Below are positions 1 to 2,269 of a stretch of DNA of 32,659 bases, in pieces. Each line of letters opens with the position of its first letter. The stretch's first letter is position 1. The DNA is taken from the NCBI GenBank assembly GCA_035495615.1, contig DATJFP010000049.1, positions 1-32,659 on the forward strand. The letters run 5' to 3'. A program made the position numbers and the translations under genes. Under the pieces are notes generated by a model. The model was not told the origin of the DNA. It searched no databases and saw only the letters and a program-made list of their open reading frames with translations. The DNA comes from Verrucomicrobiia bacterium. Lineage in GTDB: Bacteria > Omnitrophota > Omnitrophia > Omnitrophales > Aquincolibacteriaceae.

Positions 1-1668
1 GTGATTTACGCCCGGAAGTTCAGGCCCCAGAATTTCGAAGAGGTCGTGGCGCAGGACGCCGTGACCACCACCCTGAAGAACGCGATCCGGCAGAAACGCA
101 TCCCCCAGAGCTTTCTTTTTTCCGGGCCCCGCGGCGTGGGCAAGACGTCCGTCGCCCGCATCCTGGCCAAAGCGCTCAACTGCGCGAAGGGGCCGGCGGA
201 AATTCCCTGCGATAAATGCGACAGCTGCCTGGAGATCGCGAAATCCACGTCTCTCGACGTGCTGGAAATCGACGGCGCGTCCAACCGCGGCATCGAAGAA
301 ATCCGCAACCTGCGCGAGAACGTGAAGTTCAAGCCCGCGAACGGCAACTTCAAGATCTACATCATCGACGAAGTCCACATGCTCACGACCGAAGCGTTTA
401 ACGCGCTGCTGAAGACCCTCGAAGAGCCGCCCCCGCACGTGAAATTCATTTTCGCCACGACCGAGTCGCACAAAGTGCCGCTCACGATCCTGTCGCGCTG
501 CCAGCGCTTCAACTTCAAGCGCATTCCCACGCCCGAGATCGCCAAGAAACTCGAAGAGATCGCCAAGCGCGAAAAATTGAAATACGAAAAGAACGCGCTC
601 TTCCTGGCGGCCAAGGCCTCCGAAGGCGGATTGCGCGACGCGGAAACGCTGCTCGATCAGCTCGCGAGTTTTTCGGACGAAAAGATCAACGAAGAAGACG
701 TCCTCTTCCTTTTGGGGCTGGCGTCGGAAGACCTTTATTTCAAGGTGCTGGAAGCGCTGGCCGCCAAAGATGCCAAGGCGCTTTTTGCCATGATCGAGGA
801 ACTTTACCAGGGCGGCCGCGACCTCATGCAATTTGCCAAAGGCCTCCTGGAAATTTTCCGCAACCTGCTGCTCCTGCAATGCGCGCAGGAGCCGGGAGAA
901 TTCATCGAGATGTCCGAAGACGGCGTCGAGCAGCTCAAAAAGCGCAAGGACCTGTTCACGCGCGGCGAACTGCTCATGGGACTCAGCCTGATCGGCAATC
1001 TTCAAGGCCAGCTCCGGCGCAATCTCGCGCCCCCGAAGCTGCTCGTCGAAACGACGCTGCTGAAGCTCCTGCATCTGGACGGGCTGCGTTCGCTGGAAAG
1101 CGCGGTTCCCGCAGCGCCTGCGGCCGCGCAAGCCGCTCCACGGACGTATCAGGCTCCGGCTTCAGCTCCCGCTCCGGTCCGGACCCAGGCCGCGCCTTCG
1201 CCGGTTCCGGCCGCGGAAAAAAAAAGCCAGCCCGCCGTTAGGGAAGCCGCGGCTCCCGCCGCCAAAGCCGCATCCGGCGAGGCCGTGACTCTGGCCGAAG
1301 TGGAAGCCGCGTGGGCCCAGATCGTCGAATACGTCAAAGCCAAGCGCATGTCCATCGGCATCTTCCTTTCCGAATCCCAGCCCGTTGAAACGAGCGGCGC
1401 GCTCGTCACGCTCGCGCTGCCTTCGGAATTCCAGTTCCACAAAGAGACGCTCGATAAAAGCGCGAACAAGAAACTCGTCGAAGAGGCCTTTGAGACCATC
1501 ACCGGGAAAAGGGCGGGTATCCAGTTTGTGATCACGAAGCTGACCGACCCGCCCGCCGAAAACGGCGAACCCGCGCCCGCTGCTGCGGGACAGGCCGGAC
1601 CCTTGCCGGACATCATCATGAAGGCGCTCGACATTTTTGACGGCGGACGGATCGTCCGCAAAGAATGA
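1..1668 (+). CDS. dnaX: DNA polymerase III subunit tau/gamma (probably 5'-truncated by the window)
   Basis: Clamp-loader ATPase that loads the sliding clamp and links polymerase cores at the replication fork. Residue numbers count from the first codon in the window. The AAA+ core shows a Walker A motif (GPRGVGKTS, about residues 43-51), a four-Cys zinc site between residues 60 and 77, a DEVH Walker B near 124 and a sensor-1/arginine-finger stretch ending in ILSRCQRF. An Ala/Pro-rich linker (about 365-425) leads to a tau-type C-terminal domain. Family members normally begin with M-S-Y-x-V(L)-x-A-R-K, so the GTG at position 1 probably encodes an internal Val and the true start lies a few codons upstream. 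A nine-A run in the linker could produce a short gamma form. recR follows after 1 nt. Identification is secure; the start is not. Confidence 0.96.
   Translation: MIYARKFRPQNFEEVVAQDAVTTTLKNAIRQKRIPQSFLFSGPRGVGKTSVARILAKALNCAKGPAEIPCDKCDSCLEIAKSTSLDVLEIDGASNRGIEEIRNLRENVKFKPANGNFKIYIIDEVHMLTTEAFNALLKTLEEPPPHVKFIFATTESHKVPLTILSRCQRFNFKRIPTPEIAKKLEEIAKREKLKYEKNALFLAAKASEGGLRDAETLLDQLASFSDEKINEEDVLFLLGLASEDLYFKVLEALAAKDAKALFAMIEELYQGGRDLMQFAKGLLEIFRNLLLLQCAQEPGEFIEMSEDGVEQLKKRKDLFTRGELLMGLSLIGNLQGQLRRNLAPPKLLVETTLLKLLHLDGLRSLESAVPAAPAAAQAAPRTYQAPASAPAPVRTQAAPSPVPAAEKKSQPAVREAAAPAAKAASGEAVTLAEVEAAWAQIVEYVKAKRMSIGIFLSESQPVETSGALVTLALPSEFQFHKETLDKSANKKLVEEAFETITGKRAGIQFVITKLTDPPAENGEPAPAAAGQAGPLPDIIMKALDIFDGGRIVRKE
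1217..1241 (+). promoter_or_regulatory. dnaX A9 slippage site with -1 frame stop
   Basis: Nine consecutive A at 1217-1225 are read GAA AAA AAA AGC in the dnaX frame. A shift to -1 (ribosomal slippage, or one extra A in the transcript) reads AAG CCA GCC CGC CGT TAG and stops at 1239-1241. The product would end at about residue 413, after the ATPase and oligomerisation domains and inside the linker, as gamma does in Escherichia coli. Thermus thermophilus dnaX uses a comparable A9 run for transcriptional slippage. Use of the site here is inferred. Confidence 0.6.
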
Positions 1669-1669
1669 C

Positions 1670-2269
1670 ATGAGAGGCTATTCGGAGTGGATGGGCGATC
1701 TCGTGCAGGCGCTGTCAAAGCTGCCGGGGATCGGAAGAAAGTCCGCGGAACGCATCGTTTTCTACCTCCTCAAATCCAAACGCGAAGAAGTGCAGCGCCT
1801 CTCGGCGCTGATGATGAACGCCAAGGAAAACATCTTCTTCTGCGAAATCTGCCATAACTTCGCCAATGCGAAAATCTGCGAGATCTGCGCGAATCCCGGC
1901 CGTGACAAAGGCGTGATCTGCGTGGTCGAAGATCCCAAGGACGTGCTTTCGGTCGAGAAGACCCAGCATTTTTTCGGCACCTACCACGTGCTGCTCGGCG
2001 CGCTTTCCGCGCTGGACGGCATCGGCCCGGACGAGATCCAGATCCCGGGCCTCGTCGAGCGCGTTAAGAAAGGGACAGTGCGGGAAGTGATCCTCGCCAC
2101 GAATCCCAATACCGAGGGCGAAACCACCGCCCTTTATATCTCCAAGCTGCTCAAACCTTTGAAAATCCAGGTCACGCGCATTGCCCGCGGCGTGCCTGTC
2201 GGAAGCAATCTCGAATACGTGGACCAGGCCACGCTTGCCCGCGCGCTCGAAGGCCGCCTTCCCGCCTGA
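1670..2269 (+). CDS. recR: Recombination mediator protein RecR
   Basis: RecR works with RecF and RecO to load RecA on gapped DNA. The 200-residue protein has the family's usual length and order. A helix-hairpin-helix occupies about residues 10-35 (ALSKLPGIGRKSAERI), a four-Cys zinc finger uses C58, C61, C70 and C73, and a Toprim domain runs from about 81 to 175 with the acidic segment VVEDPKDV and the ATNPNTEGE motif. I chose ATG 1670, 1 nt after the dnaX stop, because it gives the normal length; a TTG at 1637 in the same frame would add 11 residues overlapping dnaX. There is no strong Shine-Dalgarno sequence, which fits translational coupling to dnaX. The small gene ybaB/ebfC, often found between dnaX and recR, is absent. 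Confidence 0.97.
   Translation: MRGYSEWMGDLVQALSKLPGIGRKSAERIVFYLLKSKREEVQRLSALMMNAKENIFFCEICHNFANAKICEICANPGRDKGVICVVEDPKDVLSVEKTQHFFGTYHVLLGALSALDGIGPDEIQIPGLVERVKKGTVREVILATNPNTEGETTALYISKLLKPLKIQVTRIARGVPVGSNLEYVDQATLARALEGRLPA

Follow-up and report, generated by a model that had tools for sequence, protein, structure and literature searches.

Does a run of nine A's (A9) in the dnaX gene of an Omnitrophota bacterium give rise to gamma, the form of the polymerase subunit without the tau C-terminal domain, and if so, does the shift occur during transcription or on the ribosome? The question is raised by the first gene of the window, by which we mean the whole stretch of 32,659 nucleotides analysed here (contig DATJFP010000049.1). 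In Thermus thermophilus, gamma is produced from dnaX by transcriptional slippage on A9, with stops in both other frames (PMC1088944, PMC5009743). A second arrangement, in which dnaX is split into two ORFs, mostly at A10, was recorded in a GeneTack survey for 17 genes from 12 genera (PMC3711429). According to a review from 2012, most bacteria beyond enterobacteria and Thermus are without a dnaX frameshift signature and may make no gamma (PMC3290774).

The dnaX gene and its A9 run

The features discussed below are the following.

1 to 1668, forward strand: dnaX, DNA polymerase III tau/gamma, 555 codons (NCBIfam TIGR02397 and PRK05563, Pfam domains)
52 to 1086, forward strand: domains I-III (ATPase, lid, domain III), amino acids 18 to 362 by Pfam, common to tau and gamma
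1217 to 1225, forward strand: A9, putative slippage run, in GAA AAA AAA AGC (E406-K-K-S, codons 406 to 409 of the 555-codon frame)
1239 to 1241, forward strand: TAG, stop of the -1 frame, five codons past A9
1273 to 1581, forward strand: DnaX_C, the tau C-terminal domain (Pfam PF20964, amino acids 425 to 527), which would be missing from shifted products
1286 to 1288, forward strand: TGA, stop of the +1 frame, 20 codons past A9
1670 to 2269, forward strand: recR, the next gene in the same direction (NCBIfam TIGR00615, 250.7 bits), listed as context

The identity of dnaX is supported by NCBIfam profile scores of 501 bits for PRK05563 and 442 bits for TIGR02397, the latter above the curated cut-off of 250 for the dnaX N-terminal family. 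Pfam matches cover amino acids 18-175 (PF13177), 179-225 (PF22608) and 230-362 (PF12169, domain III), such that both domain III and the tau C-terminal domain are present. The contig begins at base 1 with the frame already open and therefore the gene may miss a few N-terminal codons. Its nearest named relatives are metagenome genomes of Omnitrophota.

An earlier note on this DNA had described A9 in dnaX with a -1 stop five codons later, and had placed the run in the linker past the ATPase and oligomerisation domains. Both statements agree with the sequence and with the Pfam boundaries, as the run follows domain III (ending at amino acid 362) and precedes DnaX_C (starting at amino acid 425). The +1 stop was absent from that note. 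Across the site, the frame reads GCC GCG GAA AAA AAA AGC CAG, and beyond the run the zero frame continues for another 147 codons, a layout different from the split genes of the GeneTack survey (PMC3711429).

The run could have arisen by chance, as a selectively neutral stretch within the disordered Ala/Pro linker of a gene for which tau is the sole product in meaningful amounts. When the codons of the 78-codon linker were shuffled synonymously with the peptide fixed, the E-K-K-S peptide led to A9 or longer in 4.5% of trials, which leaves room for chance, but shuffling the order of the codons produced such runs in just 0.15%. A pattern search over both strands of the whole 3.16 Mb genome retrieved 51 exact A9 sites, and 14 of the 30 sites inspected fall in a long sense-direction ORF, as judged by a rough longest-ORF rule. 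Intragenic A9 is therefore rare yet not unknown in this genome; A9 is not strictly avoided, and the toleration of other sites is in line with chance. On the other hand, nine A's are prone to slippage in many bacteria even if they are neutral in origin (PMC1088944). For the window gene taken alone, the case for function is suggestive only.

A9 runs in the order and in the remaining Omnitrophota

For a wider view, dnaX genes of the order, of other Omnitrophota and of further phyla were collected and scanned for A runs. The linker was defined by fixed offsets without alignment, starting at codon 355 and ending 123 codons short of the stop. Most of the genomes compared are metagenome assemblies, labels such as "same order", f1 or f2 were assigned by the tool, and the dnaX genes of the remaining Omnitrophota are best-scoring matches. 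Because the statistics rest on related genes and on shuffles, the comparative p-values are to be read as guides.

Within the order, the linkers of 33 intact dnaX genes contain 16 A9 runs and one A10. Shuffling predicts 0.35 A9 runs for these linkers when codon order is randomised and 2.97 when synonymous codons are exchanged, although such probabilities overstate the significance since the loci are related. Only one A8 is present in the same linkers, and the other 47 kb of the 33 genes contain no run of nine or more A's. A phylum-wide occurrence of A9 in Omnitrophota was considered and rejected, as only 3 A9 runs are found in 104 genes outside the order, near the 1-2 that are expected. Short dnaX frames in four further Omnitrophota loci (L105, L107, L149 and L155) were likewise rejected as split genes, because they end at contig ends.

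The runs occur in all three codon phases: the family of the window genome has phase 1 (GAA AAA AAA Axx), families f2 and f3 have phase 0 (CAG AAA AAA AAA GAx), and family f6 has phase 2 (xTA AAA AAA AAC). This argues that a nucleotide run is kept and not one peptide. The window's family includes ten other A9 genomes; in these, the run is followed by a codon for Ser (AGC or AGT only), Thr or Ile, and the first base of this codon is always A. The probability that all 11 family genes use GAA AAA AAA is approximately 9e-9 given their own codon use, if the genes are treated as independent. Codon identity at same-residue sites ranges from 0.42 to 0.63 in the gene pairs measured, and thus synonymous sites are far from frozen.

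These data bear on the view that the run is maintained for a Lys-Lys motif of the linker and not for slippage. It is true that every run encodes at least two lysines. However, with the peptide fixed, synonymous shuffles account for the 2.97 A9 runs given above against 16 observed; the flanking residues vary with codon phase (EKK[STI], KKK, [VL]KKN); and a motif cannot explain split genes with A10, which are described below. Among the members without A9, no linker that was read carries a conserved Lys-Lys motif encoded with AAG. We consider selection for the peptide to be highly improbable.

Nearest relatives and the history of the run

The earlier note had proposed conservation in relatives as a check on the A run, and the outcome is divided: exactly nine A's are retained in roughly half of the order, but the linkers of the two closest relatives, L085 (71% identical) and L086 (66% identical), contain no A9-like run. 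In a tree of the DnaX core, A9 occurs in a ten-genome clade and in families f2, f3 and f6, the window gene is the sole A9 carrier among its close kin, and parsimony requires eight changes. The context of the window run, A-E-K-K-S-Q-P, is similar to that in several A9-clade genes, x-E-K-K-[ST]-[QH]. This likeness speaks for retention with repeated losses; an independent gain may be the alternative. The linker of L104 reads Q-E-K-S with A6, which looks like a loss of the run through one lysine codon.

The isolated position of the window gene on the tree and the lack of the run in its nearest relatives fit a neutral origin. Against this, runs of equal length recur in the family at the same place and in a similar peptide context, with stops near in both other frames. 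Taken together with the codon-order shuffle of the linker, this makes chance an improbable explanation.

In one gene of the same order, L113, codons ~397-401 include GAG AAA AAA AAG, an A8G that places the E. coli heptamer A_AAA_AAG in frame; the -1 stop follows three codons on. Other members of its clade include A9 and A10, and a switch from transcriptional to ribosomal shifting is possible for L113, as far as its sequence indicates.

Transcriptional or ribosomal shift

A -1 ribosomal shift needs a -1 stop only, whereas slippage enters both shifted frames, and thus both stops should be close if the runs act during transcription. In the Omnitrophota-centred set, both stops lie within 11 codons for 80% of linker runs of nine or more A's (A9+), compared to about 20% of A5-A7 runs (Mann-Whitney p 4e-8; p 1.7e-5 with one gene per lineage). 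Simulated downstream codons showed that -1 and +1 stops are each significantly near when considered separately (p at most 0.001). One feature of the window gene speaks against slippage, as its +1 stop, 20 codons off, is farther away than in most A9 genes.

The competing possibility is -1 ribosomal frameshifting as in E. coli, in which two tRNA-Lys would slip back on A_AAA_AAA and translation would terminate at the TAG at 1239-1241. Every nine-A run includes an in-frame A_AAA_AAA, the -1 stops are close, the L113 heptamer with its nearby -1 stop represents the E. coli type, and such shifting could act together with transcriptional slippage. Nevertheless, the ribosomal model predicts selection of the -1 stop only, yet +1 stops are equally close. 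Moreover, seven or eight A's or A6G would suffice, yet the order holds the sixteen A9 runs and the single A8. The window run provides A_AAA_AAA as its sole heptamer and does not offer A_AAA_AAG in frame; in E. coli, A_AAA_AAA shifts far less than A_AAA_AAG (PMC5009743).

Stimulatory elements of the E. coli type were searched for as well. In the A9 and A10 genes examined, the sequence ahead of the run never contains a Shine-Dalgarno-like word; the only one was found in L113, which is an A8 gene. This includes the window gene, where the 20 nt upstream of A9 contain no such word and no significant stem-loop lies downstream (fold z -0.16). Across genes, no consistent RNA structure surrounds the runs (mean z -0.1 upstream and -0.5 downstream), and a structure-stimulated ribosomal shift was set aside on these grounds. 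We judge E. coli-type frameshifting as the explanation for the window site to be unlikely.

The window dnaX therefore follows the Thermus pattern rather than that of E. coli frameshifting: an intact tau frame with nine A's in its linker, close stops in both other frames, and neither a Shine-Dalgarno-like element nor a stem-loop. It is likely, judged from these sequence features, that the A9 acts as a programmed site of transcriptional slippage, like that in Thermus thermophilus dnaX, and yields gamma; the site is probably functional. The earlier note had suggested that the A9 could make a gamma subunit, and this proposal gains support from the excess of A9 in the linkers of the order, the constrained codons and the near stops in both frames. 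As to mechanism, on which the earlier note took no side, the evidence favours a transcriptional one, to which a ribosomal contribution may be added.

RNA polymerase would stutter on the nine A's and generate mRNAs with varying A counts. Transcripts with 9 (or 12) A's would encode full-length tau of 555 amino acids. One extra A (10 A's), or a -1 ribosomal shift, would lead to the TAG and to a gamma of 413 amino acids with the C-terminus ...EKKKPARR, while one A fewer or two more (8 or 11 A's) would lead to the TGA and to a gamma of about 428 amino acids. Because A9 sits between domain III and DnaX_C, the shifted products would be gamma-like, keeping domains I-III without the tau C-terminal domain. 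Slippage in this organism, its ratio and the cellular use of gamma are what we infer from this pattern.

Other phyla and split dnaX genes

Among 80 loci from named genomes, A9 linkers were found in Ignavibacteria (1), Verrucomicrobia (1), Bacteroidetes (2) and Gemmata (1). Bacteroidota, Verrucomicrobiota and Planctomycetota were then sampled, and the analysis covered all sampled genomes in which dnaX was matched strongly. Linker runs of A9-A11 are present in 24/40 genomes of Bacteroidota, 18/59 of Verrucomicrobiota and 4/35 of Planctomycetota, counts that include one genome per phylum put in the sample because of its known A9. In 27 of these genes tau is encoded in frame, and 19 are split. For intact genes of the three phyla, both stops lie within 11 codons in 27/29 with A9+ but only in 23/113 with shorter runs (Fisher p 3e-13).

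In the split genes, the zero frame ends at most nine codons from the run and a long ORF occupies the -1 frame; the run is A10 in 16/19. For 13/19 split genes, blastp matches this ORF to tau C-termini from relatives with tau in frame. The other six (L351-L356, Verrucomicrobiota) encode -1 frame proteins of 117-172 amino acids that are conserved in two groups of three, and a profile of the Verrucomicrobiota tau C-terminus gave no clear match to them. Since split genes need a shift for read-through, they provide independent evidence that such runs work.

Several further observations were made in these phyla. L268 and L270 (Verrucomicrobiota) each have two linker runs, an A9 at codon 374 and an A10 at codon 400/401, and after each run a stop soon follows in both other frames. 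Zero frames of 375-478 codons without poly-A were seen in L302, L316, L381, L382 and L383 (Planctomycetota) and in L282 (Verrucomicrobiota); perhaps these encode a gamma-only DnaX or use another type of recoding. L297 also has a short zero frame without poly-A, and this frame runs off its contig.

A giant open frame downstream of dnaX

Apart from dnaX, the window contains a single open frame at 7314-32657 (forward strand) of at least 8448 codons, which is still open at the contig end. Pfam domains in this frame correspond to phosphoglycerate kinase, the GAPDH C-terminal domain (two stretches), a GPI-like domain, GlpX-type fructose bisphosphatase and triosephosphate isomerase. In its translation, two long segments in tandem closely resemble one another, each of them around '...GERRAISAVLG...GKGKVLAFDQDNSIAEMSIDSLDYVWY...'. 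To judge from its sequence, the product is apparently a giant fused glycolytic/gluconeogenic protein.

Relation to known systems and significance

The window site belongs to a known kind of slippage, and the comparison with Thermus thermophilus is the closest in that both genes have exactly nine sense-strand A's in a single tau frame with near stops in both other frames. The two differ in phylum and in the position of the run, at seven-eighths of the gene in Thermus (PMC1088944) and at about 73% in the window dnaX, for which slippage and gamma are predicted. With the two-ORF genes of the GeneTack survey (PMC3711429), whose architecture recurs in the 19 split genes reported here, the window dnaX shares an A-run at the gamma/tau junction. 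The assignment of products is however reversed, as gamma is the zero-frame product in the two-ORF genes and tau requires a shift. Escherichia coli dnaX is similar in being one gene with zero-frame tau and with gamma made through a -1 shift that ends soon after domain III; its A_AAA_AAG, its Shine-Dalgarno-like stimulator and its stem-loop are missing in the window, where the +1 stop is also near.

In the earlier note, the spread of dnaX frameshifting was called poorly known. In our comparison, the spread appears to be much wider than what we found recorded: the open-access literature, with subscription papers mostly outside, yielded no survey that deals with in-frame A9 genes, and no survey for Omnitrophota. 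Judging by the sequences, gamma or tau may arise through slippage in roughly half of the order and in many Bacteroidota and Verrucomicrobiota. In a broader version of this idea, poly-A slippage in the linker would be an ancient and widespread means of controlling the tau/gamma ratio in Omnitrophota, Verrucomicrobiota, Planctomycetota and Bacteroidota, with evolutionary switches between in-frame A9 (gamma by slippage) and split A10 (tau by slippage); we give this proposal an even chance of being correct.

Baranov et al. pointed out that slippage of the truncating kind is not easily revealed by comparison (PMC1088944). Near stops in both other frames, combined with a run of nine A's, no more and no fewer, in whichever codon phase, offer a pattern by which it can be recognised. 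Some of the A9 and A10 lineages are culturable and hence open to testing. If the broader proposal is true, many bacteria would depend on the stutter of RNA polymerase for an essential subunit of the replisome. The suggested spread of slippage bears on the purpose of gamma and on the way in which an error of the polymerase was turned into a programmed step.
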